Part shown: in pieces, positions 202 to 64,000 of the stretch | Layout: the number at the start of each line of letters is the position of its first letter | Position numbering within the stretch: position 1 is the stretch's first letter | Virus record (IMG/VR): IMGVR_UViG_3300025646_000030 | Span: 1 to 64,000 of that record | DNA: 64,000 nucleotides | Reading direction: 5' to 3' (one strand) | Source of the DNA: a virus | Made by a program: the position numbers and the translations under genes | The notes under the pieces: generated by a model | Told to the model about the DNA's origin: nothing | Seen by the model: only the letters and a program-made list of their open reading frames with translations | Databases searched by the model: none

Positions 202-3144
202 ATGACGACCGACAAGAGCGCAAGCGGCGATCCCTTCAGGGGGAAACCCGCCGTTGATCTACTGCGTGAAAACGTCTTTCCTGCTGCCTGGAGCTATGTC
301 CCCGTTGCTGGAAAAGCGACCTATGTCGAACAGTGGGCAACGCAGCCACTCACTAAAGAGCAGTGCCTTGAGGCCTATAAAAGCAAACCGGCTTACAACG
401 GTATCGGTGTGGTCACCGGCCTCGCAAGCGATGGCCTGATCGCCCTCGACATCGACGGGCCTCACGCCGACGAGCGCTACAAGGCCATAGCCGGCGATGA
501 GTACGAGCCCTACGGCCAGGAGCGCACCATGGCCTGGACGTCCGGCAAGCCCGGGCGACGGCAGATCGTCTATCGCCTTCGCTCCGGGGTCGCTGATGAG
601 CTCAAGAACCTTAAGACCCTGATCCTGCAGTACGACGGCGACTGGACCCTGGGTCAAGGCGACAAGAACCGCGCCCCGGGCGAATCCGATCAGATCCCCG
701 AAGGACAGGAGTACGAAGAGGTCGTTCTCCGCTTCAACAACTGCCAGAGCGTCCTGCCGGGCTCGGCTCACCCCGAGGGGATGCGCTACCGCTTCCTCTC
801 CTACAACGGTGGGATGCCTGCAACGGCACCGGGTTGGGTGCTGGATGCGGTGCGCCCCTACCGCAAGCCGGTGGCCTTCCTCACCGGTGAGATGGCTGAG
901 GCCCTCAAGGACTTCGGCGACACGATCATCCCGCCCAAGCAGATCCGCGGCTGGTTCTTCAAAGAGGAGATCCAGTCCAAGCTCATGCCTCGGCTGACCG
1001 AGCTCGTCTTCAACCACCCGGTCTTCGACGAGTACGGCTGGAAGCAGAGCGGCGGGCAGAACCCCCAGATGAAGTGCGGCTGCCCCTGGCATGGCGGTAA
1101 GTCAGGCACCACCTTCCAGTTCTCGCTCAACTCCGGCTGCTGGGACTGCAAGGCCTGTGGCGTCCACGGTGACGTCCTGGACTTCGTCCACAAGATCCGC
1201 AGCAATAACAAGTACGCTCCCAAGCCCGCAGGCGCCGACCTCGAGAGCTACGTGGTCGAGATCACGACCGCCCTCGGGTACAACTACCCGGAAGACGCCA
1301 GAGCCCAGGTCGTCAAGGAGATTCCGCGCATCGTCCTGAGCGAGCGGGAGTTCCATGAGGCACTGATCAAGATCCACGACGAGGAGCTCAACCCGGCGAT
1401 CCGCATCGGGCGCATGGCCGGCCTCGCGGCTGAAACAGGTCGTCGCCTCACCGGGGTCCAGTGCCTCGCTGCGATGGATGAGTACCGCTACTACGAGGAG
1501 GCCCGCAAGCAGAACGAGCAGTCGGCCTGGTGGGAGAACGTCGAAAAGATGGACTTCCTGGTGCCCAACCTGCTGATGAAGCCCACGCAGGTCATGCTCC
1601 ACGCTGCGGGCGGTCTTGGGAAGACCTCGGCGTGCATGGGACTCGCCAAAGCCGTGGGCCGCGGGGAGTCGATGCGCATCCGCGGGATCGATCTACCCAT
1701 CAAGCAGGGTCCCGTCCTCTGGATTCAGAACGACCAGAACCCCGCCAAGCTCCTGCGTGACTGCGAAGACAACGGCATCCACCCGGCCTCGGACAAGTGG
1801 TTCATCGTCAAGCGCGGCTTCCAGATCAACCACACCAACGAGTTCGCCCAGTGGATCAAGGACTACGAGCCGGCGCTGGTGATCGTCGATTCGATCGGCT
1901 CCTGCTCCACAAAGATGCAGGTGGAGGAGAAGGACAAGGCGTTCGCGTCGCCCTTCTACTACTACGCCGAGAAGAACGGGAACCCGGGTGACGGGGGCTT
2001 CCCGGCCACCACGATCATCTGGATCCACCACGACAACGCCCACGGCGATGCCCGGGGTACGCGCTACCTCATCGCGGCAGTCGATGAGCAGTGGCACCTG
2101 CGATCGACCACCGAGGACGAGCGCGAGGCGATCCGTGAGCGGGGCACCAACCCCTCCAACTGCCGCATGATCGCGATCAAGAAGTCTCGCCTCGGGCGCC
2201 AGGGCGACTTGCTGGTGGTGGAGCGCGATGAGAACTTCGCGTACTCGGTGGCGGACTACACCCCGACCGAGCGACGGGAGGACAACGGCCAGGGACCAGC
2301 GGAGCCCCACACGATGGCGCTGCGCATCGTCAAGGACCGCGTCAGGGAGGCCGCGGAGGAGGGTTCCACCCTCAAGGACCGGATGACGGCCAAGGAGGTC
2401 TGGGAGCGGCTCGTGGAGGAGATGAACGGGCAGGTCCGTAAGCCGCCCTCGAGCAAGACCGTGAAGCGTTGGTTGGACCGGTGGGTGGAGGACGGCGTGC
2501 TGGTGATGGGCAAGCCGCTCTCGGTGGAAGGACAGCGCAAACCAGTGCCCTCCTATACCCTTCCCCCCTCACGCGCGCGTGCGTTGCGTAACCATAATCG
2601 TCTTTTCTCCGTTCATCCCCGAGATCGACTGCAGGAGAACGGATCTTTGAAAGGACACGATCAGGCGGAGGGGGCCGATGTCTTTTCATCCGAGAGCGGT
2701 GCTGACGCGGCGCAACCGGTTGAGATCATGAACGGACATCGCCCGCAATCAGACAATTTGTCCGTTCAAGAGATCCCAGTCACCGAGGGCGATCTCGAGG
2801 AAGAGCGGACAAAGGACAAAAAAAAGCACACTAAAGAGGAGCCCCATGGCCAACACACGCCTGTTTCAGCAACGGCGCCGGCGCAAACCGACCTCGTTGA
2901 AGACCCGGGAGAAGGTCGCCTTGTGGGAGGAGAGGTTCCGCCGAGCCCAATCCCCGGAGTCCCGGTACGGGGCGATGAGGCAGATCCAGCGCTGGACCTT
3001 GGATCACCCTCTGATCCAGATGTGGGAGGAGCGGGATCCCCGGTTCAACGACATGACGTGGAACTTTCCAGGATGAGACCCGCCTGGGATATGCGGGAGT
3101 ACCAGGGTCCCGAGGCCGACTACGGCGATGCCTTTGATGATTGA
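202..3144 (+). CDS. Primase-polymerase / RepA-like helicase fusion
   Basis: A two-part replication protein of 980 aa. The N-terminal part resembles a bifunctional primase-polymerase (AEP) domain, with ALDIDG (D83, D85) and a later SAHPEG motif near residue 190. A zinc ribbon follows, with CGCPWH at about 292-297 and CWDCKACGVH at about 313-322. Next is a RecA/RepA-type ATPase with Walker A GGLGKTS (about 470-476), Walker B VIVDS ending near D563, and an IWIHHD sensor strand. A winged-helix-like segment ends near residue 800. The last 180 residues are low complexity, show weak GC preference at third codon positions, and overlap a second gene in another frame. That tail may therefore be disordered or only incidentally open. 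The gene starts the rightward replication operon and no strong Shine-Dalgarno sequence precedes the ATG. Confidence 0.9.
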   Translation: MTTDKSASGDPFRGKPAVDLLRENVFPAAWSYVPVAGKATYVEQWATQPLTKEQCLEAYKSKPAYNGIGVVTGLASDGLIALDIDGPHADERYKAIAGDEYEPYGQERTMAWTSGKPGRRQIVYRLRSGVADELKNLKTLILQYDGDWTLGQGDKNRAPGESDQIPEGQEYEEVVLRFNNCQSVLPGSAHPEGMRYRFLSYNGGMPATAPGWVLDAVRPYRKPVAFLTGEMAEALKDFGDTIIPPKQIRGWFFKEEIQSKLMPRLTELVFNHPVFDEYGWKQSGGQNPQMKCGCPWHGGKSGTTFQFSLNSGCWDCKACGVHGDVLDFVHKIRSNNKYAPKPAGADLESYVVEITTALGYNYPEDARAQVVKEIPRIVLSEREFHEALIKIHDEELNPAIRIGRMAGLAAETGRRLTGVQCLAAMDEYRYYEEARKQNEQSAWWENVEKMDFLVPNLLMKPTQVMLHAAGGLGKTSACMGLAKAVGRGESMRIRGIDLPIKQGPVLWIQNDQNPAKLLRDCEDNGIHPASDKWFIVKRGFQINHTNEFAQWIKDYEPALVIVDSIGSCSTKMQVEEKDKAFASPFYYYAEKNGNPGDGGFPATTIIWIHHDNAHGDARGTRYLIAAVDEQWHLRSTTEDEREAIRERGTNPSNCRMIAIKKSRLGRQGDLLVVERDENFAYSVADYTPTERREDNGQGPAEPHTMALRIVKDRVREAAEEGSTLKDRMTAKEVWERLVEEMNGQVRKPPSSKTVKRWLDRWVEDGVLVMGKPLSVEGQRKPVPSYTLPPSRARALRNHNRLFSVHPRDRLQENGSLKGHDQAEGADVFSSESGADAAQPVEIMNGHRPQSDNLSVQEIPVTEGDLEEERTKDKKKHTKEEPHGQHTPVSATAPAQTDLVEDPGEGRLVGGEVPPSPIPGVPVRGDEADPALDLGSPSDPDVGGAGSPVQRHDVELSRMRPAWDMREYQGPEADYGDAFDD
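2608..2768. repeat. Cluster of GAACGGA inverted repeats
   Basis: Four copies of GAACGGA or its complement lie in 161 bp: TCCGTTC at 2608, GAACGGA at 2637, GAACGGA at 2730 and TCCGTTC at 2761. The last pair is a perfect 10-bp inverted repeat, TGAACGGACA (2729-2738) and TGTCCGTTCA (2759-2768), with a 20-bp spacer. The first pair is a 7-bp inverted repeat with a 22-bp spacer. A small palindrome GACAATTTGTC lies at 2752-2762. This looks like a protein-binding array, either an operator or origin iterons, placed inside the weakly coding tail of the primase gene. Confidence 0.55.
2846..3076 (+). CDS. Small basic protein embedded in primase 3' end
   Basis: A 76-aa protein read in a different frame inside the primase tail. 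AGAGGAG lies four bases before its ATG, the clearest ribosome-binding site in the rightward operon. Most of its codons end in G or C, as in the real genes around it, whereas the overlapping primase frame is close to even there. The product begins with a RRRRK basic patch, has a helical RE/WEE-rich middle and ends in WNFPG. Its TGA overlaps an ATG in the primase frame (ATGA, 3073-3076). Function unknown; a DNA-binding accessory to replication is only a guess. Confidence 0.7.
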   Translation: MANTRLFQQRRRRKPTSLKTREKVALWEERFRRAQSPESRYGAMRQIQRWTLDHPLIQMWEERDPRFNDMTWNFPG

Positions 3145-35850: not shown

Positions 35851-37353
35851 TCAGTCTTCCCACTCGTTGACAGTGAATGGGCGCTGTCCACGTCGGGTCG
35901 TGAGCGGGCGAGGCAGTGCAGTACCGAAGGGCTGTTGACGTTCGCGAGCAAGACGCGCATCGCGCTCGGGTTTGAGGGCGAGGAAGAGACGTGCGGGTTT
36001 GACACCTAGGCGGCGGGCTTCGCTCTTAATTGCAGTGGGGCGAAACTTGAGATCACGTTCAAACGCTGCACGGTCTGTTGAGCCTCGTTGAGCGGTCAAA
36101 ATCCGCCGCGTAAGCCCTGGAATTCGAGGTTGATCCAGACTGCGAACAAACCGTGAACGGGGCATGCGCCCCTCAGTCCAGAGCAGGTCGGCCTCGAGCG
36201 CGTCGTGGTACCGGTTGACCGCTACCTCGAATTTTTCCCAAGAACGACTGTAGTCACGAGCTTGTGTTTCGATATTATCAAGCACACCTTTGAAGCGGTT
36301 ATCTGTGAAGTCTCTTGCGTCTGCCTCGCTATACCCGACCATTGAAGGCAATCTACGTAGATCACTTAGTAAGTTTTCGACACCATCTCGGGAATGCACT
36401 GGGTGCCTGTAATCATCGATATCAGTAGAGTAACCAAAGTCAATAATGGCAACTTTGCGGCTACGCGGCTGCACCATGATGTTGCCGCTATGAATATCGC
36501 CATGTGCGAGACCCTCGGTGTGTAGTTTGCGGAACTCGCGGAGCATTTTGACTTTGACAATCGAAGGGGCGCTAGCTGCAGTGCCATAGGCGTCTGGGTG
36601 CACAGAGTCCAGGGTCTTGTAGCCCCTCATGTGAGAAAGGATCAGCGTCTGCGACCGCACGTCACCGTATTCGTCTGTGACAGCGTTCATGCCTAATGGT
36701 TGTGGGACGTTGACCCCTTTGCCGTGTGCTTTATCCAGGCGGTCATATTCCCAGCTGACGTCGTCATCGTCTCCGTTGCGGAATAGCTTGACGCCGTACT
36801 TCTCAGATGGATGGACGAAGTAGGTGCCGAATGCACCTTCCCCGGCTTGGCAACGCGGGTTGGGGATCGCCGCGTCAAACTTCGCCGGGGCTGTCAGCTT
36901 TCCCAGGCCATTGCCGCACTCCATGGCGCGACGACGCGCGTTGATCTTTTCCTGTACGTCCCACTTCTGCCCACCGGCGACGGCCTCATCGGCGATTTTC
37001 CGAGCCTGCTCAGGTGTGAGCTTTTGATTATTTCGGGCGCTATCAGGTCGTGCGCGCCGTTCTCCAACGGTTAGAGGGCGTTGCTTGTTGCGTATGTGTT
37101 TAGCCAAATAGGCACCTCCTGTTAGTACGCCTGCGGCAAGAGCCACTTTAGCTGCGGTTTGGAGGTTTGAGTTGGTAGAGGAACCCGCTTTTTTACTGCA
37201 TTTATGGTTCTTGGGAATAAACGACTCACCGCACGGCTTTCCCTTCCCGCCCTCGGGGGCGTCGATCCTTACCAGGCCGAGGACTTTCCCGGCGTCAGTC
37301 CGTCGCGGCGGCTCGTTTTGCCCGAGCACTTCCACTTCGCCCTGGAGAGGCAA
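35851..37353 (-). CDS. Membrane-anchored kinase-fold protein
   Basis: A 500-aa protein with a kinase fold. The N-terminus has the cysteine motif CGESFIPKNHKC (C41, C52) and a membrane-like helix (TAAKVALAAGVLTGGAYL, about 66-83). Kinase signatures follow: glycine loop GEGAFGTYFV (171-180), VKLF with K189, catalytic loop HGDIHSGNIMV (D286, N291) and metal-binding IDFG (D305). HGD rather than HRD places it near atypical or aminoglycoside-type kinases. All catalytic residues look present. Located between portal and protease with a shared family motif, it is a candidate virion-delivered kinase acting on host proteins. The ATG overlaps the upstream gene by 85 bp and is not certain. Confidence 0.75.
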   Translation of the reverse strand: MPLQGEVEVLGQNEPPRRTDAGKVLGLVRIDAPEGGKGKPCGESFIPKNHKCSKKAGSSTNSNLQTAAKVALAAGVLTGGAYLAKHIRNKQRPLTVGERRARPDSARNNQKLTPEQARKIADEAVAGGQKWDVQEKINARRRAMECGNGLGKLTAPAKFDAAIPNPRCQAGEGAFGTYFVHPSEKYGVKLFRNGDDDDVSWEYDRLDKAHGKGVNVPQPLGMNAVTDEYGDVRSQTLILSHMRGYKTLDSVHPDAYGTAASAPSIVKVKMLREFRKLHTEGLAHGDIHSGNIMVQPRSRKVAIIDFGYSTDIDDYRHPVHSRDGVENLLSDLRRLPSMVGYSEADARDFTDNRFKGVLDNIETQARDYSRSWEKFEVAVNRYHDALEADLLWTEGRMPRSRFVRSLDQPRIPGLTRRILTAQRGSTDRAAFERDLKFRPTAIKSEARRLGVKPARLFLALKPERDARLARERQQPFGTALPRPLTTRRGQRPFTVNEWED

Positions 37354-38252
37354 AGCGGAGTGTTGCGGTCCTTACCACCGCAGTCCTTGCCGTGGGACTT
37401 CATGTCACCGAAGCTACGAGCGCAGTACCGGTCGCCTTTGTCGGTGCCGGGTGCGATCTTGTAGCCCTTGGCGCCGTAGCGCACCTTGTTCTTGCGGCCG
37501 GTCTTGGGGTTGGTGACGGTCTTGCTGTACTTCTTGCCGTCCTCGGTGTCGCGGCGGGTGGGGGGTTGGAGCTGGACCGGGGCGTAGTGCTGGATGAAGT
37601 TGTCGGTGCGGCCGAAGCCGCGGGCCTTGCGGCGGCGCGGTTGACCGGTTCGGGGATCGATCGGGATGGCCTCGCGCTGCGGGGTGAGATCGCCAGCGGT
37701 CAGCTTGGGCTGGGTTCCCTGGGGTAGGCGGCGTTGATCAGGGGCGCGGTAACCGGGCTCGAACCGACGGCGGGCGGCCTCGGTGCGGAGGCGCAGCTCG
37801 CGCAGGGTCGTTTTCGCAGCCATGCCGGTGGCTTCACCGGCGGCGGCCATCGTGTTACCGATTTGCCCAAGGCGCCGAACTTCTTCCCGGGCGGTCTGGG
37901 CGATACGGCCCTCGGCGTTTTTCACAGCAGCTGCGGTGTTGGCCCGCATGCGCTGCGTTTTGGACTGACGCGGAGGTGCTGCCTTGAGCAGGGCGCGAGG
38001 TGACGATCCGGGAAGACGCGGTGCAGGCGAAGGACCCCGGAAGCCAGGCACCGAGCTCGAGGGGCGAGCGGTTCCTGAGCGACCCCGCTTGCTCAGCGCA
38101 GCGGCACCGAGAGCGAGGGCACCGGCGGTCAAACCAATACCAGTAGCGATGGCGACTTTGGTGGCAGGGCCTTTTGTACATTTTTCGCCCTCGGAGATAG
38201 CTCCTTTGCCGCACTTGAGGTCGAGGCGTAACGCACTCGGGGTCAGTGTCAT
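37269..38252 (-). CDS. Motif-bearing basic protein, DUF6321-like end
   Basis: A 327-aa protein starting MTLTPSALRLDLKCGKGAIS, with the paired cysteines C14 and C25 and a membrane-like helix (VAIATGIGLTAGALALGAA). The middle is Arg-rich. The C-terminus (YSKTVTNPKTGRKNKVRYG, KGYKIAPGTDKGDRYCARSF, then NTPLCLSRAKWKCSGK) matches, from memory, the DUF6321-type end found in many aquatic phages. Likely head-associated and nucleic-acid binding; the enzymatic role, if any, is unknown. The start overlaps the upstream gene by four bases. Confidence 0.7.
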   Translation of the reverse strand: MTLTPSALRLDLKCGKGAISEGEKCTKGPATKVAIATGIGLTAGALALGAAALSKRGRSGTARPSSSVPGFRGPSPAPRLPGSSPRALLKAAPPRQSKTQRMRANTAAAVKNAEGRIAQTAREEVRRLGQIGNTMAAAGEATGMAAKTTLRELRLRTEAARRRFEPGYRAPDQRRLPQGTQPKLTAGDLTPQREAIPIDPRTGQPRRRKARGFGRTDNFIQHYAPVQLQPPTRRDTEDGKKYSKTVTNPKTGRKNKVRYGAKGYKIAPGTDKGDRYCARSFGDMKSHGKDCGGKDRNTPLCLSRAKWKCSGKTSRRDGLTPGKSSAW

Positions 38253-39601
38253 AGCCCTAGTGCCTCCCAGTCGATGTCGAAACCATCGGCGTAGACGGAG
38301 TCGAGCTTGCCGCGTCGGCGCATAATCTCCTGGTATGCGGCGTTGATCTGCTGAGCCTTGCGAGGATCGCCGCCAGCGTCAGGGTGATTCTGGCGCATCA
38401 GCTGGAGCCACTTCTTCTTGATGTCGGCATCTGAGGCGGTCTCGGGTATATCGAGGTCTTTGAAAGGATTCTCGACGGCCTTGTTAGCCCCAACGTTGCG
38501 GCTGCCCTGACTGCCAGAAGCTGCGTTCTGCTTTGCACGTTGCTGTGCCTGCTCACGAGCTGCGTTCCACTGGCGTTTGTAGTTCTCGGCACCCATGACC
38601 CACTCAGCCTCTTTGGAGACCAGTTGGGTACGAGCACGGCGAGCTCCAATGAAGTTCCCCGCACCTAAATACATCAAAGTGCCGCCAGCCATAATGGCTC
38701 CGGCCTGCCTTTTCTTGGGTTCTTTGGCGTACTCGTTGGCTATTACACCGGCGCCTGCGATACCTAAGCCGGCGCCGGCAATTTCACCTGCGCGTGCGAT
38801 ACCACTGAGCTCCTGAAATACCTTCTTTCCCTGTGCAATTCCTTCATCTGGAGTCGCGCCTTTGCCCAGAGGTCTTGAAGCAATACGCTTTGCTGAACTA
38901 TATTTTGCAACGCCCAGCGCAAGTCCCCCGAGGGCGGCGGCACCGCCGACACCAAGAGCTACATTGCGAATGGTGTTGTTTTCTTTTGACTTGGCTTTAG
39001 TGGCAGGACCTTTGGTACATTTTTCGCCCTGGGAGATGGCGCCTTTGCCGCATTTGAGGTCTTGCCTTACTGCTTTAGGGGATAACGCTGAATCTGTGCG
39101 TCTCATAAATTTGTCAAAAGCATCTGGATCTTTAGCTAGCTCTCCTAACTCCTCGAAGGTCATAGCTCTACTTTTAAATGCGTCTTGAAACTTTTTGCTT
39201 TTGACTACGTCTCGTATGGCTGCGCGCTTTGCCTTGTCGGCTTGCATTGCATGAGCTACTTCTTGCGGATTTTCTCGTACCCGGCGCTGGGCAGATTCCA
39301 CGGCACGTTTACCTAAAGATTCAGCCTTGGCTCGGCGTGCTGCGATGGCAGCTGGATCGCGCGGGGGTGGCTTAGGAGGGGTCTTGGGGATATTCGGCAC
39401 AGTGCGCTCATCCCCACCTCGAGGCTTTCTCCCTCGGCGGCGCAGCGCAATAGCCCCTGCGGCTAAACCCAAGCCAAGAGCGATAGGTGCAACTTTCTCA
39501 ACAACCTCTTGAGCAGCGCCCTTAGTGCACTTTTCGCCCTTAGAAATTGCGCCTTTGCCGCATTTCAAGTCGTTCCTGACCGTACTCGGAGTAAGGGCCA
39601 T
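38249..39601 (-). CDS. Motif-bearing membrane protein with J domain
   Basis: A 450-aa protein with two copies of the cysteine motif, at residues 11-27 and 181-197 (DLKCGKGAISKGEKCTKG and DLKCGKGAISQGEKCTKG), each followed by a hydrophobic helix. A third hydrophobic region lies near 270-320. The C-terminus (about 377-430) is a J domain with NPFKDLDIPETASDADI and the HPD signature at 406-408 (MRQNHPDAGG). J domains recruit and stimulate Hsp70. The last residues DSVYADGFDIDWEALGL resemble the end of the next protein. A phage protein that would dock host DnaK at a membrane or in the virion is unusual. Confidence 0.75.
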   Translation of the reverse strand: MALTPSTVRNDLKCGKGAISKGEKCTKGAAQEVVEKVAPIALGLGLAAGAIALRRRGRKPRGGDERTVPNIPKTPPKPPPRDPAAIAARRAKAESLGKRAVESAQRRVRENPQEVAHAMQADKAKRAAIRDVVKSKKFQDAFKSRAMTFEELGELAKDPDAFDKFMRRTDSALSPKAVRQDLKCGKGAISQGEKCTKGPATKAKSKENNTIRNVALGVGGAAALGGLALGVAKYSSAKRIASRPLGKGATPDEGIAQGKKVFQELSGIARAGEIAGAGLGIAGAGVIANEYAKEPKKRQAGAIMAGGTLMYLGAGNFIGARRARTQLVSKEAEWVMGAENYKRQWNAAREQAQQRAKQNAASGSQGSRNVGANKAVENPFKDLDIPETASDADIKKKWLQLMRQNHPDAGGDPRKAQQINAAYQEIMRRRGKLDSVYADGFDIDWEALGL

Positions 39602-63629: not shown

Positions 63630-64000
63630 TTACTGCTCGCTCGCCCTAGTCAAAAGTCCGTTGATAATGTCAGCTGGCCGGCACTGGCGAGCAACGCACT
63701 CAGTGTCGAGCCATCTACGGTTGTTGGGTGTCAATGTAATCGATATTTTCAAACGCTCGTTTTCTTTGCGTAGTTGCTCGTTACTCTTGGACTGAGCGAT
63801 ACGGGCCGAGGTAGAGCGCCAGCGATCCAGCGTCCCCGGTGCCAAGTCGCCGCGCTCGGTGGCTTTCTGGAGGCGCTGCAGGATGCTCTGGCGCGACACC
63901 CCGAAGATCTCGCCGACGTCAGCCCATTTCACGAAGCCGTGCGCTTCGTAAAGCCTTTCGCACGTCTGCGTGATGTCTTCGAGGGGTGTGTATTTGGGCG
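63630..64000 (-). CDS. HTH/coiled-coil regulator-like protein (partial)
   Basis: The 5' part runs off the right edge: the frame is open to the last base with YTPLEDITQTCERLYEAHG before KWADVGEIFGVSRQSILQRL, a helix-turn-helix. A coiled coil (NEQLRKENERLKI) and a C-terminal RRWLDTECVARQCRPADIIN follow, which resembles a ribbon-helix-helix tail. It may be a DNA-binding regulator. The start lies outside the window. More than 120 residues are visible. Confidence 0.6.
   Translation of the reverse strand, partial: PKYTPLEDITQTCERLYEAHGFVKWADVGEIFGVSRQSILQRLQKATERGDLAPGTLDRWRSTSARIAQSKSNEQLRKENERLKISITLTPNNRRWLDTECVARQCRPADIINGLLTRASEQ

Follow-up and report, generated by a model that had tools for sequence, protein, structure and literature searches.

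A probable replication origin within a phage primase gene, with repeated sites that covary with the wing of the encoded protein

An array of alternating ten-base sites in the 3′ part of a cyanophage primase gene changes its sequence together with a few residues in the wing of the winged helix that the same gene encodes. The array probably comprises the double-stranded DNA sites of this C-terminal winged helix, which belongs to an initiator with Prim-Pol and AAA domains, and forms the replication origin of the phage within its own initiator gene. The initial annotation of this DNA had suggested that a dimeric phage protein, perhaps a neighbouring basic protein of 76 aa, binds here to an operator or a replication origin. 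The general proposal fits the evidence, with an origin favoured, whereas the small protein gives way as the binder to the winged helix of the primase itself, a protein that the annotation had also put forward for binding tests. That the protein binds the array directly, that replication starts there, how initiators are loaded and what selection drives the change are what we infer.

The replication gene and its surroundings

The stretch of DNA analysed, here called the window, runs from base 1 to base 64000 of a virus record 70,707 bases long. The record opens with a run of 14 G's (positions 1-14) that may be an artefact of sequencing or assembly. An open reading frame at 202..3144 on the plus strand encodes a 980-aa replication protein composed of a Prim-Pol primase/polymerase domain (Pfam PF09250, E 1.9e-15), a CHC2-like zinc ribbon (PF01807, weak and below the cut-off), an AAA_25 ATPase (PF13481, E 1.9e-9) and a C-terminal winged helix. 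The Pfam search yields neither an SF3 helicase, AAA_25 being the only match of this kind, nor a RepA_N domain, and the primase is of the Prim-Pol and not the Toprim type. No sequence relative of the whole protein is found in the PDB at E 0.01. A family A DNA polymerase gene and an AbrB-like gene lie downstream.

Deposited phages match at the DNA level only in pieces of the lysozyme and polymerase genes, and at the protein level there is one weak primase match alone. Six virus records contain no ParA-type partition gene. Weak tyrosine-recombinase matches occur in four of the six (G001, G003, G004 and G005, which carry the loci L001, L007, L017 and L064) and not in the window's record, so some members of the family may be temperate. 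Elsewhere in the window, the minus strand, which carries the portal and terminase genes, also encodes at 35851-39601 a protein resembling kinases (APH/Kdo/Pkinase profiles) and one with a DnaJ domain.

An alternating array of six sites

The initial annotation described four copies of GAACGGA in 161 bp. All four are present, at 2608(-), 2637(+), 2730(+) and 2761(-), with the spacers of 22 and 20 bp that it gave, and in the second pair the match extends to a perfect inverted repeat of 10 bp (2729-2738 / 2759-2768). Its estimate of about 0.02 copies expected by chance in 161 bp agrees with shuffled sequences, which average 7.96 copies per 64 kb (the window has 11). The array does not stand beside the primase gene but within the primase reading frame 202-3144. 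Its extent also changes: alignment with relatives defines a conserved array of six sites at 2606-2811, to which three of the four GAACGGA copies belong. The copy at 2637..2643 (+) falls outside the six conserved elements and out of register, and is specific to one lineage (the window, L003 and L021).

The six sites strictly alternate in orientation. Element E1 (TGAACGGAGA) is at 2606..2615 (-), E2 (TGAAAGGACA) at 2648..2657 (+), the decayed E3 (TGAAAAGACA) at 2679..2688 (-), E4 and E5, both TGAACGGACA, at 2729..2738 (+) and 2759..2768 (-), and E6 (AGAGCGGACA) at 2802..2811 (+). Half-copies lie 7 bp beyond both ends, AGAAAAGACG at 2599..2608 (-) outside E1 and ACAAAGGACA at 2809..2818 (+) past E6. 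The array of the window is partly decayed, with E1, E2, E3 and E6 imperfect. As the elements alternate in orientation they do not qualify as the direct-repeat iterons of an iteron plasmid origin.

A run of alternating C and G occupies 2572..2580, directly before the array. Such runs, at least eight bases long, occur on one or both sides of the array in many phages of the window-like group and of group B, over a background of 0.057 per kb; in L016-L019 and L048-L058 they lie about 360-380 bp past the TVxRW motif. A role in Z-DNA formation or as a boundary is possible.

Conservation among relatives

The comparison uses 23 loci from viral contigs, 78 from a second, profile-based search that includes most of the first contigs, and eight from one genome scan; a third viral scan of 39 loci was left out because it gave contig names already present in the earlier scans. 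At the matching place, directly past the helix-turn-helix motif TVKRW, relatives have decamers that alternate in orientation, and throughout the window-like group the six sites occupy identical alignment columns. No motif was preset for scoring the array. In each of 56 members that are distinct in the helix-turn-helix and wing and have 500 bases downstream, and in 330 control windows from the same loci, the score is that of the best decamer family with copies in each orientation. The score exceeds the 99% control quantile (1.70) in 49 of the 56 members and the highest control in 47, and the window itself reaches 2.05. The array is therefore conserved, as the initial reading demanded. The seven members below the threshold are L108 and six window-like phages (L001, L003, L006, L018, L021 and L022) in which the six sites are partly decayed.

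The exact pair TGAACGGACA-N14-40-TGTCCGTTCA occurs in four contigs of the whole viral collection, all from this family. No second array of the phage's own motif is seen in the window's record or in four further records. The array lies past the primase stop codon in L057 and L107, indicating that it is the DNA that is kept and not the peptide. In L103, a MAG contig, the primase frame shifts near the wing (about 1900-2005) and stops early, and the downstream array is still recognisable.

Concerted change of the motif

The motif is uniform within one phage and differs among phages, which carry TGAACGGACA, GCAATGGACA, ACGATGGACA, GTTTTGGACA and others. With corrected element letters, 20 phages have eight distinct consensus motifs, and other groups contribute GGTTCGGACA, AGTGCGGACA, GTTTTGGACA, TTTACGGACA, GTTTTGGTCA, ACGAGGGACA, ACGAGCGACA, GATTCGATCA and more. 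Over bases N1-N5 of all six elements, identity among a phage's own elements is 0.783 compared with 0.528 when elements are shuffled among phages, and none of 5000 shuffles is as high; for elements 2-5 the values are 0.814 and 0.542. This test covers 19 phages, L038 being omitted as a near-copy, and in four of these phages the reading of element 2 was off by one base.

The winged helix and its covariation with the array

An AlphaFold2 model of aa 688-799, built from a 48-sequence alignment, has three helices and a beta wing at a moderate pLDDT of 70.5. The Foldseek list for this model contains many winged-helix DNA binders, for example RTP with DNA (second) and Orc1/Cdc6 on origin DNA (fourth); the best E is 2.9e-3 and none falls below 1e-3. 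The Pfam profile HTH_23 matches weakly in 39 of the 48 members. The C-terminal domain of the primase is accordingly modelled as a winged helix. Its predicted recognition helix, placed by the model (helix 64-77 of the 112-aa fragment) and by wHTH matches, spans aa 751-764 (SKTVKRWLDRWVED; 2452..2493, +). The predicted beta wing spans aa 767-786 (2500..2559, +), and its residues Q778-R779-K780 and P783 covary with the array motif.

This association emerges from a scan of 18 window-like phages, near-duplicates and L018 being left out, in classes called by eye: seven TGAA, eight GCAA-like and three ACGA. Among the assignments L001 is mixed, and L017, mostly GGAA, and L056, with a C/G tie at N2, are both filed under GCAA. 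Residue 779 is the best of 632 variable columns and sorts with the motif class without exception, being R or N with TGAA, D with GCAA and K with ACGA. Columns 778, 780 and 772 come next; the others of high rank belong to residues whose codons lie in the array elements, so that outside the array the leading columns are wing positions. At N5, the base that follows (mixed in L019), residue 783 is best and sorts perfectly, with proline where N5 is not T and another residue where it is T. Taken in blocks, the association reaches z 9.5 for the wing and 0.33 for the bridge between wing and array (aa 787-801, 14 variable residues). The other blocks give 2.2 (aa 1-700), 2.1 (701-748), 2.9 (the helix block, 749-765) and at most 2.8 (spacers between elements). 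Simple linkage is an unlikely cause of this pattern, since linkage would not skip the bridge.

A tree of 23 rows, made from the part of the protein that precedes the helix-turn-helix, requires 11 switches of motif class, close to the number for shuffled labels. L038 and L056 belong to different classes despite identical upstream sequence. Independent pairs, chosen without L018, agree in 7/7 cases for GCAA with D779, 8/8 for TGAA with R or N779 and 7/7 for N5 with P783 (sign tests 0.016, 0.008 and 0.016).

Sister phages and the recognition helix

Closely related phages localise the change. L038 and L064 are 96-100% identical along the gene and beyond, and 96% in the bridge, whereas identity falls to 48% for the wing codons and to 48-85% for the array. 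The same drop in wing and array is found in L029/L064, L023/L013, L006/L007, L003/L002 and L018/L019; it is weaker in L018/L019 (wing 77%), and the other four pairs are lower in some flanking bins. Bridge DNA is 90-96% identical in these six main pairs, and the sequences on both sides of it differ. Two pairs from other groups, L084/L085 and L050/L054, also drop in wing and array; there the bridge is not conserved (64% and 61% in the 117-150 bin), and the helix bin of L050/L054 is 86% identical. Sister pairs are otherwise mostly 90-100% identical, and more distant pairs show differences throughout.

In a few cases the other half of the site varies with the recognition helix. Most members in which K or R precedes TV or SV share a GGACA core. 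Leu precedes TV in L018 and L109, which belong to different groups, and both combine it with an ATCA core, and GGTCA is shared by L057 (RTVD) and L063 (RTAE). An acidic residue alone does not set the base, since L105 (RTVE) has CGACA. L104 and L105 are related phages from one assembly, Vulcanococcus limneticus LL. Their arrays, ACGAGGGACA and ACGAGCGACA (GGGACA/GCGACA), differ by one base in nearly every copy, half-copies included. Their helices read KKSVRRWLDRW and RRTVERWLRRW, the wings are similar and much of the remainder is shared.

Proposed mechanism

Each site would consist of two halves, the variable N1-N5 read mainly by the wing tip (residues 778-783) and the more constant half with its GGACA core read mainly by the recognition helix. 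The six alternating sites may take up several copies of the initiator, which would then open the DNA and prime synthesis through their primase and ATPase domains. Joint change of wing and array would create distinct, probably mutually exclusive origin specificities. The case for an origin draws on the type of protein, which joins primase, ATPase and winged helix, on the occurrence of one array per genome and on precedents. An AT-rich unwinding element is not apparent, in that the most AT-rich 40-mer does not fall consistently at the array in 39 loci. GC skew does not place the origin either, as it shows no switch of sign and keeps nearly one sign round the records. On the strand that codes for the primase the skew is positive nearly throughout (whole records G000-G003 and G005), though most large open reading frames of the window lie on the other strand.

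Alternative interpretations

The covariation indicates recognition and not its purpose, and the same winged helix could bind the array as an autoregulatory operator, controlling transcription of the primase-(p76)-polymerase operon instead of the start of replication. The array lies just upstream of the genes for the 76-aa protein (p76) and the polymerase in the window, and past the primase stop codon in L057 and L107. Six to ten sites within the 3′ coding part of an initiator would be unusual for an operator, however, and the array keeps its position relative to the winged helix with or without p76. An operator is thus an unlikely reading.

The nested inverted repeats might instead act as hairpins in the primase mRNA, in processing, translation of p76 or termination. 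The predicted folds are very stable, with a mean z of -6.2 in 19 loci versus -0.6 in upstream controls (the array of L003 has no fold signal, z 0.19), and both sides have changed in 26 of 37 predicted pairs. Strong folding is expected, however, because alternating repeats must fold. Pairing would keep partners matched but would not equalise all six elements, and mismatches between opposite elements (19 G-U, 17 A-C and 83 transversions) show no excess of G-U. Rfam has no match above its cut-off, and the motif tracks residues of a protein wing. An RNA hairpin as the main selected form is accordingly disfavoured and very unlikely.

Just as slight is the chance that wing and array merely hitch-hike as parts of a small set of old recombination cassettes and do not interact functionally. 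They lie within about 350 bp of each other, and entire array stretches, spacers included, differ between sister phages; being such close neighbours, they must owe part of the pattern to cassette exchange. Against linkage as the whole explanation stand the lack of association in the bridge and between-element residues, the conserved bridge DNA of the six main sister pairs, and L104/L105, where nearly all copies differ by the same one base and much else is shared.

The last of these readings to merit discussion assigns the array to another DNA-binding factor (p76, an AbrB-like protein or a host protein) or to a packaging or partition site. The p76 reading frame (2846-3076, +) overlaps that of the primase. 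Third codon positions of the p76 frame vary most in four of five comparisons, the exception being L002, so that this frame and not the primase tail seems constrained and p76 looks like a real gene. Both p76 and the AbrB-like protein are encoded near the array. Nevertheless, tblastn does not find p76 in the whole records G002 (L003) and G003 (L007), and AbrB is not found in G003, although both records have arrays. As p76 is missing from array-bearing relatives it cannot be the general reader, and both proteins are rejected as the binder. Moreover, the motif class tracks no primase columns beyond the wing and the array itself, and another factor of any kind is the most improbable of the four. 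A mobile palindromic element inserted in the reading frame is not favoured, as the motif follows the wing.

Comparison with known systems

Phage P4 alpha is a Toprim-type primase, in which it differs from the Prim-Pol protein of the window. It resembles the latter, from the account in PMC4234260, as a primase-helicase whose winged helix binds origin repeats. The same source describes ORF904 of pRN1, an archaeo-eukaryotic primase with a helicase and a C-terminal winged helix, and an origin next to the gene, in a large stretch that forms a hairpin and varies in sequence between conserved flanks. The window's protein likewise joins an archaeo-eukaryotic primase domain (PF09250) to a C-terminal winged helix predicted from AlphaFold2, Foldseek and weak HTH profiles. 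The pRN1 protein has an SF3 helicase in place of AAA_25, and the pRN1 stem-loop, as described there, lies downstream of the gene without iterons, unlike the repeated sites here, which are inside the reading frame in most members.

The lambda origin lies inside gene O and contains the iterons of the O protein (PMC7466680, PMC3349717), four in lambda and six in the related phages treated in PMC7466680. Both cases place repeated initiator sites inside the initiator's own reading frame, here six elements at 2606-2811 in 202-3144. Going by these accounts, lambda O is not a primase-helicase, and the lambda iterons adjoin an AT-rich region, whereas none is seen at the array. The sites here also alternate as one large palindrome and differ strongly between near-identical phages.

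For such covariation the precedent is PLE RepA, an otherwise shared protein in which the DNA-binding domain varies in step with the origin and swaps show cognate specificity (PMC8263062). The initiator described there is a RepA_N protein acting at an intergenic origin with three semi-palindromic iterons, and the domains of the window's protein are unrelated. PMC7157519 is cited alongside these origin precedents. A literature search found no published report of such an array, which does not prove its absence from print.

Significance

The analysis identifies a probable origin, and the protein likely to read it, in a phage family that has hardly any match in deposited phage genomes. The evidence is evenly poised on a broader proposal, in which wing tip and helix set the two halves of the site and are repeatedly re-paired with an array of six to ten sites, giving a modular, fast-switching code of origin recognition driven by replicon incompatibility, origin-targeting defences or initiator-stealing parasites. 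If so, near-identical phages would fall into replication specificity types, two of which occur side by side in one cyanobacterial assembly, and the code would be readable from sequence and usable to predict origin sites. With about twenty matched pairs of protein and DNA specificities, and single wing residues that track single bases, the family offers a rare chance at a recognition code. The same natural series allows one to ask whether phage origins become diverse as a way of avoiding incompatibility or defences aimed at the origin.
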